Assembly (NCBI GenBank): GCA_022361195.1
Contig: JAKSBJ010000232.1
Span: 62,001 to 126,000 of the forward strand
Source of the DNA: Flavobacteriales bacterium
GTDB lineage: Bacteria; Bacteroidota; Bacteroidia; Flavobacteriales_D; Crocinitomicaceae
DNA length: 64,000 bases
Direction: 5' to 3'
Within the stretch, counting starts at the first letter, position 1. Each line of letters begins with the position of its first letter. A program made the position numbers and the translations under genes. Positions 16,237 to 28,671 of the stretch are shown here, one piece after another. The notes beneath the pieces were generated by a model. That model worked only from the letters and a program-made list of their open reading frames with translations, was not told the DNA's origin and ran no database searches.

Positions 16237-17256
16237 TTGGTTTTTAAACATCTCCCAATAGTCGCCATTGTCCTGCTTTTTATGAGTTCCTGTGGACTTA
16301 TGAAAAATGGAAAAAAACTGGATCATATTCGCTTTGAATACGATCAAAATTCGAATATTAATTACGGTTATACTTTTCCTTTAAAGACAATAGCTGTATA
16401 TAGTAATGGAAAAGAAAAGGACATTACTTCCAAGTCAAGTTTAGAGGTTCAATGTTCAGGAGCAAAATACTCTAATGGTAAAATATCCATTAATGCCTAT
16501 CCCACTCAATTTGATACTAATGTGATTCATCTTTCAGCTAAGTACACGCAAAAGGAGCAGGTTTTTGAACACAAAATTGATATTCCGTTTAATTACCTTG
16601 GACAACTAAAGCTCAATTTATCTGGCAATAGAGGAGCTAAAGGAACAGACGGAGCTGATGGTAAGACTGCCATTCTTTTCAGAGATGGAAAAGATGGTGA
16701 AATCGGAGCTGTTGGGCAAAATGGGGAAAATGGTCATGATCTTTCTGTTTATATATGGAAAGATGAAACAAGTGGGTTGCTAAGGATGAAGGTAGAAGAC
16801 TTGAGTGATCCTAAAAGTTATTATTACCAATATAAAAATACAGGGGGCGGTGTTCTTTTTACCGTTAACGGAGGAACTGGTGGTAAGGGCGGAGCCGGAG
16901 GTGAAGGAGGTGACGGCAAGGATGGACGAAAAACAGAAAAAAAGATAAAAAGTCCAGGTGATGGTGGTAATGGTGGCCAGGGTGGTGATGGTGGTACCGG
17001 AGGAAACGGTGGAAGCGTTTATGTTTTTATTCACCCTTCTGCGGCAGAAATGGAACGAAAAATTTCGGTTTATAGTTTTGGTGGACAAGGAGGAGAAGGT
17101 GGAACAGCCGGAGCTGCTGGAAAAGCTGGTGATCCCTTAGAAGGTCAGGAAGCAGCTGAGGATGGCACTGTTGGCATCCCTGGCTCAACAGGAGTACCTG
17201 GACAAGCCGGTGAAATATTTGAAATTGTTATTGAAGAATTTGATATTGATTCATGA
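16237..17256 (+). CDS. Collagen-like, glycine-rich lipoprotein
   Basis: A 339-residue lipoprotein starting at TTG. The signal peptide ends in the lipobox SSCG near residue 19. A beta-rich domain (residues 25-130) is followed by collagen-like Gly-X-Y triplets (about 135-165), a short insert, a dense Gly-Gly-X tract (about 205-265) broken by a Lys-rich patch, the strand SVYVFIHP, and more Gly-rich and Gly-X-Y repeats to the acidic end. Gly-X-Y regions form triple helices, and Gly-Gly-X tracts can pack as polyproline-II bundles, so it is likely an extended surface structure. Its stop overlaps the M61 peptidase start by 4 bases. Function unknown. Confidence 0.75.
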   Translation: MVFKHLPIVAIVLLFMSSCGLMKNGKKLDHIRFEYDQNSNINYGYTFPLKTIAVYSNGKEKDITSKSSLEVQCSGAKYSNGKISINAYPTQFDTNVIHLSAKYTQKEQVFEHKIDIPFNYLGQLKLNLSGNRGAKGTDGADGKTAILFRDGKDGEIGAVGQNGENGHDLSVYIWKDETSGLLRMKVEDLSDPKSYYYQYKNTGGGVLFTVNGGTGGKGGAGGEGGDGKDGRKTEKKIKSPGDGGNGGQGGDGGTGGNGGSVYVFIHPSAAEMERKISVYSFGGQGGEGGTAGAAGKAGDPLEGQEAAEDGTVGIPGSTGVPGQAGEIFEIVIEEFDIDS

Positions 17257-20088: not shown

Positions 20089-20119
20089 TTGATAAATGAA
20101 ATTAAAACAGCTATATTTA
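20089..20119 (+). promoter_or_regulatory. Near-consensus promoter
   Basis: TTG at 20089-20091 and TATATTTA at 20112-20119 are spaced by 20 bases, close to TTG-N19-TAnnTTTG. The start ATG at 20137 follows 17 bases later. The longer in-frame extension to 20089 would begin inside the promoter and is rejected. Confidence 0.5.
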
Positions 20120-20136
20120 CACAAAATTTAAACTTT

Positions 20137-21906
20137 ATGAGACGAAATTACTTGGCTAAAACGGCCTTGGCCCTAGGTCTTGTACTTCCCCTTGGTGCAG
20201 ACTCTTACGCTCAGACCGTTACAACCTTTAGTTACACAGGAGCAGTACAAACCTACATCGTACCTCCGGGAGTAACAGAAATCAACATTGAAGCCTGGGG
20301 AGGGCAAGGAGAAGATGTTACTGAATTGTATGATCCACAAACTGGAGGTTTGGGAGGTTATGCAACCGGAAATCTTTCTGTAACTCCAGGTGAGACTCTT
20401 TACATTTATGTAGGAGGACAAGGAACTGATGGAGCTGGAGGCTTCAACGGTGGTGGAACTGGAGGATTATCTACTGCTGGTGGTGGTGGTACCGGAGGGT
20501 ACGCCGGATCAGGTGGTGGAGCTTCTGACGTTCGACAAGGTGGAATGGATTTAGCTGACCGTGTAATCGTTGCCGGAGGTGGTGGCGGTGCCGGAAGAGA
20601 CTACGTAAACGGTTCTTGCGTACCATGTGGTACTGGAGGAAACGGTGGTGCCGGTGGTGGAACTACTGGAACTGATGGAGATGATCCTAACTGGTCAGGA
20701 CTTTTGGGAACATTCCCTAATCCTGGTGCTGGTGGTGAAGGAGGAACTCCAACTACAGGTGGTGCTGGTGGAGCCGGAACTGAAGGAACTCCAGGAGGTG
20801 CTGGTGTATTGGGTATTGGTGGAGACGGAGTACCAGGTTCACAAGACGTTGCCAGTGGTGGTGGCGGTGGAGGATACTACGGAGGTGGTGCCGGTGGTGG
20901 CGCTAACGGTGGTTCCGGAGCTGCTGCAGGTGGTGGTGCCGGAGGATCTTCATACACTGGATCTTTGGCTATGGCTTCTACAACTGCTGGGGTAAAAGTA
21001 GGTGAAGGAGAAATCATCATTACCGAATTATGTATTGGATTAGATATTTCAGTTTCTTCTGATTCCATTTGTAATGGAGAAGAAGTTACTTTAAGTGCTA
21101 CTTCAACCGAAGGTGGTACAGTAACATGGGACGGAGGCGTAATCAATGGTGAAGCTTTCACTCCTACTGCTACAACTACTTATACTGCTACTTCTGATGA
21201 TCCAGGTGACTGTGCATTTGAAGTAGAAATTGTTGTATTTGATCTTCCTACAGTTGATGCAGGAATGGATCAAGATGTTTGTGCTGGTGATTCTACTATG
21301 GTATCTGCTAGCGGAACAGCTACTGATTGGAGCTGGGATGGAGGAATTACTGATGGAGTAAACTTCATGCCTTCTGCAGGAACAACTACTTACACTGTAA
21401 CTGGAACTATCGATTCTACAGGATGTATGGCTACTGATGAAGTAGATATAACTGTTATCGAGGTTGACAATTCAATTTCAATTATCCCTGGAAGTCTTGT
21501 ATCTAACCAAGATGGTGCAACTTACCAATGGTTAGAGTGCCCTGATTTAACTCCGGTTGCTGGAGCTACTGATCAAGAATTCACTCCTACTGCTGATGGT
21601 GATTACGCTGTTGCAGTTGACTTAGGTGGATGTATGGATACTTCTGCTTGTCAATTAGTTCATGTTGGACTTGATGAGTCTGAATTAGGATTTGGACTTT
21701 ACCCTAACCCTGCAAATGATGTAGTTACTGTTCAATACGACCAACCTTACACTTATGCAATCATCAACCAATTGGGAGAGGTTGTTTTAAGCGGAAATGC
21801 TGTTGGAACTACTTTAATTGACTTAACAACTCTTGCTAATGGTGCTTATGTAGTTCGTTTAACTTCAGACGACAAAACAGGAAGTACTCAATTGATTAAG
21901 CAATAG
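20137..21906 (+). CDS. Secreted glycine-rich protein with Ig-like domains and T9SS sorting domain
   Basis: A 589-residue surface protein. It has a signal peptide (1-25, ending SYAQ), a first beta strand segment, a glycine-rich domain of about 240 residues (repeated Gly-Gly-X with the motif GGYATGNLSVTPGETLYIYVGGQG and VIVAGGGGGAG, as in animal ALK-type Gly-rich domains), at least two Ig/PKD-like domains (ISVSSDSICNGEEVTLSA and VDAGMDQDVCAGDSTMVSA) and a T9SS type A domain at the end (YPNPANDVVTVQYD). It is likely an adhesin or matrix component. Gly codons are almost all GGT and GGA, giving a local rise in GC and a repeat-like DNA pattern. It has its own promoter and terminator. Confidence 0.88.
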   Translation: MRRNYLAKTALALGLVLPLGADSYAQTVTTFSYTGAVQTYIVPPGVTEINIEAWGGQGEDVTELYDPQTGGLGGYATGNLSVTPGETLYIYVGGQGTDGAGGFNGGGTGGLSTAGGGGTGGYAGSGGGASDVRQGGMDLADRVIVAGGGGGAGRDYVNGSCVPCGTGGNGGAGGGTTGTDGDDPNWSGLLGTFPNPGAGGEGGTPTTGGAGGAGTEGTPGGAGVLGIGGDGVPGSQDVASGGGGGGYYGGGAGGGANGGSGAAAGGGAGGSSYTGSLAMASTTAGVKVGEGEIIITELCIGLDISVSSDSICNGEEVTLSATSTEGGTVTWDGGVINGEAFTPTATTTYTATSDDPGDCAFEVEIVVFDLPTVDAGMDQDVCAGDSTMVSASGTATDWSWDGGITDGVNFMPSAGTTTYTVTGTIDSTGCMATDEVDITVIEVDNSISIIPGSLVSNQDGATYQWLECPDLTPVAGATDQEFTPTADGDYAVAVDLGGCMDTSACQLVHVGLDESELGFGLYPNPANDVVTVQYDQPYTYAIINQLGEVVLSGNAVGTTLIDLTTLANGAYVVRLTSDDKTGSTQLIKQ

Positions 21907-22564: not shown

Positions 22565-22572
22565 TATCTTTG
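22565..22572 (+). promoter_or_regulatory. Promoter -7 box for the intergenic RNA
   Basis: TATCTTTG is a perfect TAnnTTTG box located 7 bases after the pabA stop. It is placed so that transcription would start near 22578, at the 5' edge of the folded region. No TTG occurs at the ideal spacing. Confidence 0.4.
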
Positions 22573-22576
22573 AGCT

Positions 22577-22821
22577 ACAAACCCCAACACAAAAGGTGAT
22601 TCGGTGGTTTTAATTCGTTTCGACGAGTGCCCATATAGTAAGTTTTTGGTTCTTAACGATTTTTATATTAGGGCAATCTTAGTTGCTCACCGATGACAGG
22701 CCTCATCTGCTTTGGCAGACATTAGGAAACTAATGATAACAGTGGATTTCAGAACTGAGCCGGTAGCCCTAACCATGTTCACTTGAAGATTTCCAAAAAT
22801 GGAAAGCTATATGGGTTTTTT
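22577..22821 (+). ncRNA. Candidate structured noncoding RNA of about 245 bases
   Basis: The whole gap between pabA and the convergent lytic transglycosylase gene folds by eye into nested helices. The outer helix is CCCATATAG/CTATATGGG (22630-22638 with 22807-22815). Inside it are TTAGGGC/GCCCTAA (22668-22674 with 22766-22772), hairpin GATGA/TCATC (22692-22696 with 22703-22707), TCTGC/GCAGA (22706-22710 with 22715-22719), CATTAG/CTAATG closed by a GAAA tetraloop (22720-22735), and TTTCCA/TGGAAA (22790-22805). Before it is TCGT/ACGA with a TTCG loop (22615-22626). A possible extra pairing TCGGTG/CACCGA joins 22601-22606 to 22688-22693. Six T residues follow the outer helix. It lacks the diagnostic cores of RNase P, tmRNA and SRP RNA. 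Confidence 0.6.
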
Positions 22822-24556: not shown

Positions 24557-26587
24557 TTATTCAATGACCAATTTCTCAGTACTTACCTCATCACCAATGG
24601 TGATTTGAACCGAATAAAGACCCGCTTCAAAATAATTTACGTCCAGTGGTAAAAGTAATTTGCCATTTTGTTCTCCGTAATTTCTTTCAGAAACCAATTT
24701 GCCGTTAATATCAAAGATTTTAACCATTACATTTTCGCTTGTTGCTTCACCAATTGCAAGGGTAATAATATCCCGAGCAGGATTTGGGAATAAGTCAATT
24801 TTAGCTGATACAGCTTCATCTTCAATTCCTACATAACCGTTGTTAATAGCTTCCTGGACAGTAGATTTACAAGCATTATCAATTTGTCCTGTTGTATTAT
24901 TGATTAACATTCCAATGATGTGTAAACTATCCACATCCCACTCTTCTGGAATGGATATTACGAAGTTTTCAGTTACCACATCGCTTACTGAAACTGAAGC
25001 AGGGAATATTCCCGAAGCTCCATCAAAATCAGGCATAATAGTTCTGGCAACATGATCATATACCATATTGTCAGCTGGAACTGGATTTGGAAGATACTCA
25101 TAGCCTCCCATTGGTGTCCCCGTCGAATAATAATTCGCTTGATCATATCCTGAATCATTTCCAATAACACCATCTTCTGTAATTACTAATGCCAAATTAA
25201 AATCAGAACCTGTAGTAGCCATTTGGAACTCTGAACTAATTGAAACTAAGAGCTCATTTGTACCCATGTTGTAAAATGCTCCAGGAGTCAAAATTGCAGT
25301 TGGCAATGTTGATATTCGATCCAAAAACTCATCCTCAAAATATACAGGATCGGCACTATTCACTCTATCAATCATCCCATTTGGAAAACCTTCTGTAACC
25401 AATGTTCCCATTCCTGTATCATAATCAAAAACGGTCATAGGATCATCATTATGAACAGCTATACCAGCCCAAAAATCAGCATATTTATCATCCATAAATT
25501 CCATAAACACATGACCTCTTGGACACCATCCGCACCACGTCCCGGTCATCTCTTCCCCTACAACAACTCTTCCTTCGGCTGGTACAATTGGATTAAGGAG
25601 TATCGATTTTGAATCATCTGTTACATCATTATCTGCTCCGGTACCATTGACATTAGAAACAGTAGCAATAATTGGATTTTCTCCTCCAGCTAAAATGAAT
25701 GTTTCGGAAAGAGCGACATAACTATATGCCAAAGGATTAATGCTCAAGCCACTTATGCTTTCGGAAATTGTTGTACCATTATAAGAAACATCTATATCAA
25801 AAGAAGTAATTGTGGTAGTCCCCAAATTTCTTACTTTAACTCCAGGTTGAATCTCTGCTGAGGCCATACCTTTTAATTCATCAATTCCGGCCACAGCTGC
25901 ATTAACTAATGGTAATGAATAAGGGGTGTGATTGTAACTTATATCGTCAATATAATAACTAGCATATCCGTTTCCTCCGTCTGTAATACTATTAAAAGGT
26001 TGAATTTTGATTGCTGATATTTCGCTAATATTAGTTTGTACAATGCCTTGTGAAACTCCATCAATCAACAATTCCCAATCGTTGGTATTCAAATCAACTT
26101 CAAAACCTAACGTAAACCAAGTATCTGCCGGATAAGCTGTTGTTATTAAATCATCTCCGCCATTTTTTATCACCATTGTTTCGTCCTGGAATAATTGACA
26201 ACTCAGGAAAGTGTAATAATAATCAGCCCCCAGTTGAAAGCTAAAATATGCTCCCTCACCACTCTCTACGAACAATTTCATTTCAAAGCTAAAGTCACCC
26301 GTAGTATAAACATCATCAAAAGGAATTAAAACCTTTTGAGGGCCTCCAAATGGTTCGGCTGGAGTTGTTTGAAAATAAATAGATTTTGTCCCTGAAAAGG
26401 CATTTGCATCAGTTACTTGAACATCTACCTCACTTCCCGGAACTCCATCCCAGGTGGTCCAATCAGGCGATACAACTCCCATATAGTCACCTACAGCATA
26501 AGATTCAAAACTTTCAGACAAGAATTGTGCATTAGCTTTTCCTATTGGAAAAAGAATAAAAAGTATGATTACTAAGTTTCTTCTCAT
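24557..26587 (-). CDS. Omp28-like T9SS surface protein (copy 1)
   Basis: A 676-residue secreted protein. It has a signal peptide (ending KANAQF), a jelly-roll/lectin-like region (about 20-220: FESYAVGDYMGVVSPDW), an Ig-like linker, an Omp28-related thioredoxin-like region with WCGWCPRG near residue 355, and a C-terminal T9SS type A sorting domain (FPNPARDIITLAIGE). The CxxC is followed by the conserved FWAGIAVHNDDPM segment. I start at ATG 26587 rather than 27 bases upstream. It is a tandem paralogue of the gene at 26647-28671. A perfect terminator hairpin lies directly before it, so it is transcribed separately. The role of Omp28 proteins is not established. Confidence 0.85.
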   Translation of the reverse strand: MRRNLVIILFILFPIGKANAQFLSESFESYAVGDYMGVVSPDWTTWDGVPGSEVDVQVTDANAFSGTKSIYFQTTPAEPFGGPQKVLIPFDDVYTTGDFSFEMKLFVESGEGAYFSFQLGADYYYTFLSCQLFQDETMVIKNGGDDLITTAYPADTWFTLGFEVDLNTNDWELLIDGVSQGIVQTNISEISAIKIQPFNSITDGGNGYASYYIDDISYNHTPYSLPLVNAAVAGIDELKGMASAEIQPGVKVRNLGTTTITSFDIDVSYNGTTISESISGLSINPLAYSYVALSETFILAGGENPIIATVSNVNGTGADNDVTDDSKSILLNPIVPAEGRVVVGEEMTGTWCGWCPRGHVFMEFMDDKYADFWAGIAVHNDDPMTVFDYDTGMGTLVTEGFPNGMIDRVNSADPVYFEDEFLDRISTLPTAILTPGAFYNMGTNELLVSISSEFQMATTGSDFNLALVITEDGVIGNDSGYDQANYYSTGTPMGGYEYLPNPVPADNMVYDHVARTIMPDFDGASGIFPASVSVSDVVTENFVISIPEEWDVDSLHIIGMLINNTTGQIDNACKSTVQEAINNGYVGIEDEAVSAKIDLFPNPARDIITLAIGEATSENVMVKIFDINGKLVSERNYGEQNGKLLLPLDVNYFEAGLYSVQITIGDEVSTEKLVIE

Positions 26588-26595
26588 TACAAAAT

Positions 26596-26625
26596 AAAAA
26601 AGGGAATCAATCATGATTGATTCCC
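26596..26625 (-). terminator. Rho-independent terminator between the Omp28-like paralogues
   Basis: GGGAATCAAT at 26602-26611 pairs perfectly with ATTGATTCCC at 26616-26625 around CATG. Six T residues follow on the minus strand. It lies 21 bases beyond the stop of the second paralogue. Confidence 0.88.
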
Positions 26626-26646: not shown

Positions 26647-28671
26647 TTATTCAATAACCAATTTCTCAGTACTTATTTTATCACCAATGGTGATTTGAAC
26701 CGAATAAACACCAGCTCCAAAATAGTTTACGTCAAGTGGTAAAAGTAATTCACCATTTTGTTCTCCGTAATTTCTTTCGGAAACCAATTTTCCGTTAATA
26801 TCAAATATTTTAACCGTTACATTTTCGCCTGTTGCCTCACCAATTGCAAGGGTAGTTATATCCCGAGCAGGATTTGGGAACAAGTCAATTTTAGCTGATA
26901 CAGCCTCATCTTCAATTCCTACATACCCATTGTGAATTGCTTCCTGGACAGTAGATTTACAGGCATTATCAATTCGTCCTGTTGTAGTATTGATCAACAT
27001 TCCAATGATGTGTAATTTATCCACATTCCATTCTTCCGGAATAGTAATTACAAAGCTCTCGGTTACTACATCACTTGCCGAAACTGAAGCAGGGAATACA
27101 CCCGAAGCTCCATCAAAATCTGGCATAATGGTTCTTGCAACATGATCATACACCATATCGGCAGCTGGAACCGGATTTGGAAGAGACTCATATCCTCCCA
27201 TTTCTCCACTTCCTCCACCTGCATAATAGTTTGCCTGACTATAACCTGATCCTGTTCCAGTAATACTGTCTTCTGTAATTACCAGAGCTAAATTAAAATC
27301 AGTTCCAGTAGCTGCCATTTGGAATTCAGAGCTAATAGAAATCAATAACTCTCCTGTAGCAACATTATGGAATGCTCCTGGAGTTAAAATTGCCGTTGGA
27401 GGAATCACAACCCTCTCAAGGAAATCGAACTCAAATCCTGAAGGGTCCAGATCTGAACCTCTATCAACCAATCCACTTGGATAACCAGAAATTAAAGCTC
27501 CCATTCCGGCATCATATACTTCATGTACCATTGGATCTCCATTGTGAACGGCTACACCTGCCCAAAACTCTGAATATCTATCTTCCATTTCGTCCATAAA
27601 TACAGCCCCTCTTGGACACCATCCACACCAGGTACCTGTTCCTTCTTCACCAACAACCACCTTACCCTCGGCTGGTACAACCGGATCAAGTGTTATCGTT
27701 TTGGTATCGTCATCAGCATCTCCATCAGCACCTGCACCATTTACATTAGAAATAGTTGCGGTTAAATCCTTTTCTCCTGCAACCAAAGTCAAAGCATCAT
27801 TAAAAGGAACATCGTAAAACTCTAATGAAGCAATACTTACTCCTGTAATGTTCTCGGTAATTGTAGAACCATTATAAGAAACCTCCAAATCAAAAGAAGT
27901 AATGGTAGTTGTACCTAAGTTTCTAATTTTAACGGTTGGAACAACCTCCTGCGTAGCCAGGCCATTTAAGTCTTTAATTTGCGTTACAGCTCCATTAACA
28001 GCTGGCAAAACATAAGGTGTATGTGTGTACTGAATGTCATCTATATAGTAGCTAGCCAAGTCATTTCCTCCGTAGTTTGTATTAACTGGATACAGGTCTA
28101 AAGATGCAACTTGATTCACCTCATTCTGCACTACCCCTTGAGAAACTCCATCAATCAGCACTTCCCAATCATTTGTATTTAGGTTGATGTCTAAAGTCAA
28201 CGTAAACCAAGTATCCGTTGGGTAAGTAGTTGTCATCAAAACAGAAACACCATCGTCAATCACCATACTTCCATCTTGAATCATTGAACAATTCAATGCC
28301 CAAACAGCTCCAATTGTCGATTCAGCCTGAAAGTTGAAATACGCACCTTGTCCTGCATCAACGAAAATATCCGTTTCAAAAAAGAAGTCTCCTGTATTGT
28401 ATTCACCTCCAAAAGGAACAACAACATCTTGCGGTCCTCCCGTACTTGCGGTGGTAGAAAAATAAATTGATTTAGTTCCTGAAGAAGCATTTGCATCCGT
28501 CACCTGAACATCTTCCGCTCCACCTGTAGAACCACTCCATGTTGTCCAATCGGGAGAAGCTACTCCCATATAATCTCCTACACCATAGGATTCAAAATCT
28601 TCGGACATAGATTGTGCATAGATACCTCCAGTAAGTAAGGTAGCACCTACTAATGCGTAAATTTTTTTCAT
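26647..28671 (-). CDS. Omp28-like T9SS surface protein (copy 2)
   Basis: A 674-residue paralogue of the preceding gene with the same domain order: signal peptide (residues 1-19), jelly-roll region, Ig-like linker, Omp28 thioredoxin-like region with WCGWCPRG near residue 350 and AVHNGDPM, and a T9SS sorting domain FPNPARDITTLAIGE. The C-terminal quarter is close to identical to copy 1 in both protein and DNA, while the N-terminal half is more diverged, as expected from duplication followed by gene conversion or uneven selection. Function of the family is unknown; extracellular or outer-membrane location is supported by the signal and sorting domains. Confidence 0.85.
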   Translation of the reverse strand: MKKIYALVGATLLTGGIYAQSMSEDFESYGVGDYMGVASPDWTTWSGSTGGAEDVQVTDANASSGTKSIYFSTTASTGGPQDVVVPFGGEYNTGDFFFETDIFVDAGQGAYFNFQAESTIGAVWALNCSMIQDGSMVIDDGVSVLMTTTYPTDTWFTLTLDINLNTNDWEVLIDGVSQGVVQNEVNQVASLDLYPVNTNYGGNDLASYYIDDIQYTHTPYVLPAVNGAVTQIKDLNGLATQEVVPTVKIRNLGTTTITSFDLEVSYNGSTITENITGVSIASLEFYDVPFNDALTLVAGEKDLTATISNVNGAGADGDADDDTKTITLDPVVPAEGKVVVGEEGTGTWCGWCPRGAVFMDEMEDRYSEFWAGVAVHNGDPMVHEVYDAGMGALISGYPSGLVDRGSDLDPSGFEFDFLERVVIPPTAILTPGAFHNVATGELLISISSEFQMAATGTDFNLALVITEDSITGTGSGYSQANYYAGGGSGEMGGYESLPNPVPAADMVYDHVARTIMPDFDGASGVFPASVSASDVVTESFVITIPEEWNVDKLHIIGMLINTTTGRIDNACKSTVQEAIHNGYVGIEDEAVSAKIDLFPNPARDITTLAIGEATGENVTVKIFDINGKLVSERNYGEQNGELLLPLDVNYFGAGVYSVQITIGDKISTEKLVIE

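Follow-up and report, generated by a model that had tools for sequence, protein, structure and literature searches.

A probable diverged 6S RNA with a two-hairpin 5′ domain next to pabA in a Crocinitomix-related member of the Bacteroidota

We analysed a 64,000-nt stretch of a Flavobacteriales genome (the window), in which a gap lies between two convergent genes, one for a class-I glutamine amidotransferase of the pabA/trpG type, the other for a lytic transglycosylase with an SLT domain; judged by the latter, the nearest named relatives are Crocinitomix and other Crocinitomicaceae. A TAnnTTTG promoter box lies 7 nt past the pabA stop codon, and six T residues (22816–22821) close a structured RNA at the point where the convergent gene also ends. 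The RNA probably begins a few bases past the box, at about 22577–22579, and ends in the T run. The locus comprises the following features:

22565–22572, + strand: −7 promoter box TATCTTTG of the Bacteroidota TAnnTTTG type (sequence; spacing in relatives; consensus in PMC7366714)
22577–22821, + strand: whole RNA, probable 6S RNA homologue with a 5′ extension, ends approximate (fold; RF01685, 31.8 bits; models R1 and R2)
22579–22610, + strand: extra 5′ hairpin 1, bipartite and bulged (fold; two-hairpin architecture in relatives)
22613–22628, + strand: extra 5′ hairpin 2, TTCG loop, immediately 5′ of the closing stem (fold; relatives)
22629–22638, + strand: closing stem, 5′ arm, pairing with 22807–22816 (paired in 99.4% of cells; two-sided changes in 6 of 10 pairs)
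22640–22657, + strand: predicted pRNA template, pRNA 5′-GUUAAGAACCAAAAACUU (conserved 5′ bubble strand and downstream helix; position by 6S analogy, PMC8876501)
22642–22654, + strand: downstream helix, 5′ arm (GTTTTTGG and TCTT), pairing with 22786–22800 (fold and covariation)
22655–22667, + strand: central bubble, 5′ strand (unpaired in the consensus of 32–33 sequences)
22668–22674, + strand: start of the apical arm, TTAGGGC, pairing with 22766–22772 (helix 4; 7 of 10 pairs changed on both sides)
22675–22765, + strand: apical arm and variable terminal hairpins with TTTG and GAAA loops (fold, covariation; conserved ATG.CrGGCC and GGATTxCAG motifs)
22770–22777, + strand: 3′ bubble strand motif TAACCATG (TAnnnnTG), kept in most of 33 sequences
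22773–22785, + strand: central bubble, 3′ strand (consensus structure in the structural and independent alignments)
22786–22800, + strand: downstream helix, 3′ arm (fold and covariation)
22807–22821, + strand: closing stem, 3′ arm, running into the T run; likely intrinsic terminator (relatives have an invariant GGG and then a T run)

Direct reading of the sequence showed that CCCATATAG (22630–22638) pairs perfectly with CTATATGGG (22807–22815) and TTAGGGC with GCCCTAA (22766–22772), and that hairpins ATTCGT-TTCG-ACGAGT and CATTAG-GAAA-CTAATG stand at 22613–22628 and 22720–22735. The helices, promoter box and T run reported in the initial annotation were thus all present at their coordinates, and the minimum-energy fold of 22577–22821 holds all of the named helices simultaneously. 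This fold has an energy of −67.3 kcal/mol compared with a mean of −53.5 kcal/mol for 200 dinucleotide shuffles of the same interval (z = −3.06), only one of which folded as low. The earlier view that so dense a set of helices was unlikely by chance is borne out by this score together with helix-by-helix compensatory changes in relatives.

A default Rfam scan of the window returned no family at its cut-off, whereas a permissive scan of 601 bases around the gap gave a full-length match to RF01685 (6S-Flavo RNA; Weinberg et al. 2010, PMC2864571) of 31.8 bits (E = 0.0085), the top match in this region and higher than any other RF01685 match across the 5.4-Mb genome. The curated gathering scores are 85 bits for RF01685, 60 bits for RF01693 and 46.4 bits for RF00013; the default scan was empty because 31.8 bits falls under the first of these, and the match alone is therefore a lead and no proof. 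The RNA falls outside RF01685 as Rfam delimits that family, and by the reciprocal model matches to its members (below) is a relative of it beyond the curated bounds. Canonical 6S RNA (RF00013) had no match in the genome at E values up to 10, and the gap locus was absent from the RF01693 matches at the same limit, which places it outside RF01693 as well. None of the three models (RF00013, RF01685 or RF01693) revealed a second 6S RNA in the genome. L028, a second RF01685 match of 27.0 bits, falls on a protein-coding frame and was taken as chance, as were the unrelated matches of the permissive scan to mir-644, Vimentin3, snoZ112, Ocean-V and bxd_6, which lie far under their cut-offs. RNase P RNA, the diagnostic core of which the initial annotation had found lacking here, is encoded elsewhere; the RF00010 match of the genome (230.6 bits) sits on another contig. 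A scan for sigma-70 consensus promoters gave nothing relevant, as expected for Bacteroidota, which use another box.

Relatives were gathered by BLAST, which reached three other genera, and by the RF01685 search, which added more; a relative in culture, Crocinitomix algicola, carries the locus too (L087). An alignment of six relatives (A3) gave a rod of the same architecture, in which both partners of 9 pairs have changed. Model R1, built from these six close relatives without any Flavobacteriaceae-type sequence, matched 104 of the 249 genomes sampled in the order, with a single match in all but one of them; the ~58% of sampled genomes that had no R1 match under strict filters may reflect either divergence or loss. 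In one genome of the same family, R1 gave an additional partial match of 31.7 bits (G068:C2:163226–163342) ~2 kb from the main 6S copy, possibly a 6S paralogue or remnant. R1 also reached L062, a canonical Flavobacteriaceae-type locus that itself scores 96.8 bits to RF01685, with 43.5 bits (E = 7.5e-11); other canonical loci were matched more weakly than this one, among them L064 with 27.4 bits.

Model R2, built from 33 sequences and applied to 297 genomes across the phylum, gave one strong match in the genome of origin and matches in 27 further genomes. Among its 16 best matches outside the genome of origin, 12 are RF01685 loci and 2 are RF01693 loci above the curated cut-offs, and the remaining 2 coincide in place with sub-cut-off RF01685 matches. 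RF01693 is listed as Bacteroidales-1 RNA, with the remark ‘6S-Bacteroidales RNA suggested’; these two R2 loci score 166–184 bits to it, and several relatives of the window’s RNA reach 35–58 bits over its full length (best 57.7 bits, cut-off 60), those of intermediate sequence scoring 53–58 bits. One locus (L045) weakly matches both families. Because R2 matches both, relatives score to RF01693 and L045 to each of the two, the group to which the window’s RNA belongs bridges two Bacteroidota 6S families.

Covariation across the relatives supports the same structure. A structural alignment of 33 sequences, itself fitted to the structure, shows two-sided changes at 27 of 37 pairs, with 87.5% of cells paired, values that none of 500 shuffles reached by any measure; structures slid along the alignment gave 9–13 pairs with two-sided changes, with paired cells down to 33–48%. 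An independent MAFFT alignment analysed with RNAalifold had 22 of 31 pairs changed on both sides. Compensatory base changes, which the initial annotation had proposed to seek with a covariance model of related gaps, are thus present, and fold and covariation agree on a discrete structured RNA.

The gap very probably holds the gene for a diverged 6S RNA of the Bacteroidota 6S-Flavo/6S-Bacteroidales group. The anatomy known for 6S RNA consists of a closing stem, a central bubble and an apical arm, with a −10-like element in the 3′ bubble strand (PMC8876501). The RNA has the rod of ~160–200 nt typical of 6S RNA, with closing stem, central bubble and apical arm (core 22629–22821, ~190 nt); covariance-model homology is provided by the reciprocal matches to RF01685 and RF01693 loci; and the R1 counts, promoter box and T run mark an independent single-copy gene with its own promoter and terminator. 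That a 6S system works in Bacteroidota follows from reports of 6S RNA among the transcripts of Flavobacterium psychrophilum (PMC9723704) and of 6S RNA with pRNAs in Bacteroides thetaiotaomicron (PMC7366714). Of the two options left by the initial annotation, a known Bacteroidota class is the one that held, in the form of a strongly diverged 6S-Flavo-type RNA, while the sub-threshold RF01685 match and the reciprocal model searches point away from a new class; its Rfam check was negative at curated cut-offs and positive through these searches combined.

Upstream of the rod, this lineage has a conserved 5′ domain of ~50 nt with two hairpins before the closing stem, as evident from folding and promoter spacing. 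In 39 of 42 related loci (the window’s family and some sister families, f3, f7 and f11), a TAnnTTTG box lies 50–62 nt 5′ of the closing stem, counting boxes whose TTTG part deviates at one position at most; other 12-nt bins hold 0–7 of the 42. Families f2, f4 and f5 have their best-matching box ~21–31 nt before the closing stem, and two Bacteroidales-1 loci have a TAnnTTTG box only 17 nt before it, which leaves no room for a 5′ domain. When each sequence was folded alone, 37 of the 42 domains formed two successive hairpins (200 shuffled sets: mean 2.7, maximum 9), an arrangement found by the same criterion in 2 of 14 canonical loci. RNAalifold missed these hairpins on the sequence alignment, because the 5′ part aligns poorly; individual folding showed them. 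As a side observation, Flavobacteriaceae-type 6S-Flavo loci (L137–L152) have a conserved AAGTTCTTTAAAATA-like stretch 5′ of the closing stem instead of TAnnTTTG, hinting at a different 6S promoter in Flavobacteriaceae.

The functional RNA could nevertheless be an ordinary rod of ~189 nt (22629–22821) from which the 5′ domain, as a precursor leader, is cut away, a version of the 6S reading that we take seriously while leaning somewhat against it. The core alone matches the usual 6S length, and maturation from longer precursors is known for other 6S RNAs; however, fold and spacing are kept across several families, beyond what a discarded leader would need, although a processing signal would likewise be kept. 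The role of the domain is a matter for guesswork, perhaps 5′-end stability or maturation. That Crocinitomix-type 6S RNAs form a distinct subclass, in which a retained 5′ domain adds a function such as protein recruitment or control of polymerase release, appears rather unlikely. The two-hairpin domain lies outside the RF01685 and RF01693 models and seems to be the novel part of the RNA; no mention of it was found in the literature searched, a search outside which the 6S survey of Wehner et al. 2014 fell.

It is very improbable that the RNA represents a new structured class that shares with 6S RNA nothing beyond a resemblance of rod and bubble: the window has no Rfam family at cut-off and 6S models lack the two-hairpin domain, but the reciprocal matches coincide in position with canonical loci of 6S-Flavo and Bacteroidales-1, and intermediates score to both RF01685 and RF01693. 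An element or attenuator in the pabA 3′ UTR, or a terminator serving both pabA and the convergent lytic transglycosylase gene, has a negligible chance of being correct, because the position of the RNA directly between both genes, with its box so close to the pabA stop, and the recurrence of these flanks in its closest relatives are outweighed by the other loci, where, outside the only 7 examined relatives with pabA upstream, the same RNA lies in different surroundings away from pabA with its own promoter box at the same fixed distance.

For the diverged 6S RNA, a mode of action can be proposed by analogy. Transcription would start from its own TAnnTTTG promoter just past pabA and end at the T run, and the rod—closing stem, downstream helix, central bubble and apical arm—would imitate an open promoter. 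The motif TAACCATG adjoins the apical arm, and its TA and TG stand as far apart as those in TAnnTTTG, the consensus of the Bacteroidota promoter box (PMC7366714), so that TAnnnnTG in the 3′ bubble strand possibly mimics this box. The housekeeping RNA polymerase would bind the RNA, probably by reading TAnnnnTG as a −7 box, and, as 6S biology suggests, would thereby be kept off real promoters. In 6S RNA, the pRNA template consists of the 5′ bubble strand and downstream helix (PMC8876501), and here the 5′ bubble strand would serve as the template of a product RNA 5′-GUUAAGAACC. With plentiful nucleotides, the polymerase would copy this strand into a short pRNA, predicted as 5′-GUUAAGAACCAAAAACUU, which would open the downstream helix and free the enzyme. 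The predicted pRNA is mostly GUUAAGCUUCAAAA in the relatives, and the likeness of GUUAAGAACCAAAAACU, which the window’s RNA would template, to the 6S-1 pRNA of Bacillus subtilis, GUUCGGUCAAAACU (PMC8876501), is suggestive only. For the organism of the window, we infer both polymerase binding and pRNA synthesis from known 6S systems. Both the predicted pRNA and the TAnnnnTG motif offer a direct way to test how 6S RNA acts on the unusual sigma factor of Bacteroidota.

Compared with the known families, the RNA shares with 6S-Flavo the central architecture, bubble strands and flanking helices, in line with the reciprocal R1 and R2 matches, but scores only 31.8 bits against the cut-off of 85, has a longer apical part and carries, 5′ of the closing stem, a two-hairpin addition of ~50 nt, its promoter box being shifted upstream. 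Likeness to Bacteroidales-1 RNA lies in the R2 loci and relatives that score to RF01693, whereas the window’s own copy has no RF01693 score and the box of the two Bacteroidales-1 loci stands 17 nt from the closing stem. With canonical 6S RNA (RF00013; E. coli ssrS and B. subtilis 6S-1), it has in common the rod of closing stem, central bubble and apical arm; it differs in the absence of an RF00013 match in the genome and in the Bacteroidota promoter box (TAnnTTTG). The locus adds no new RNA class; it shows a clade-specific 5′ domain and closes an annotation gap—a large Crocinitomix-related group of Bacteroidota has a 6S RNA missed by standard models at their cut-offs—and the alignment joins the separately listed 6S-Flavo and Bacteroidales-1 RNAs as one 6S lineage. 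The intermediates suggest that RF01685 and RF01693 could be merged, or share one clan with 6S.

Several protein genes around the locus also deserve mention. A glycine-rich secreted protein of 605 amino acids with a sorting-type C terminus is encoded just 5′ of pabA (20089–21906, + strand), and a further glycine-rich repeat protein at 16237–17256. On the − strand, 24557–26614 and 26647–28671 encode closely similar proteins of 685 and 674 amino acids in tandem, the near-identical C-terminal ends of which resemble secretion-sorting domains, indicating a recent duplication.
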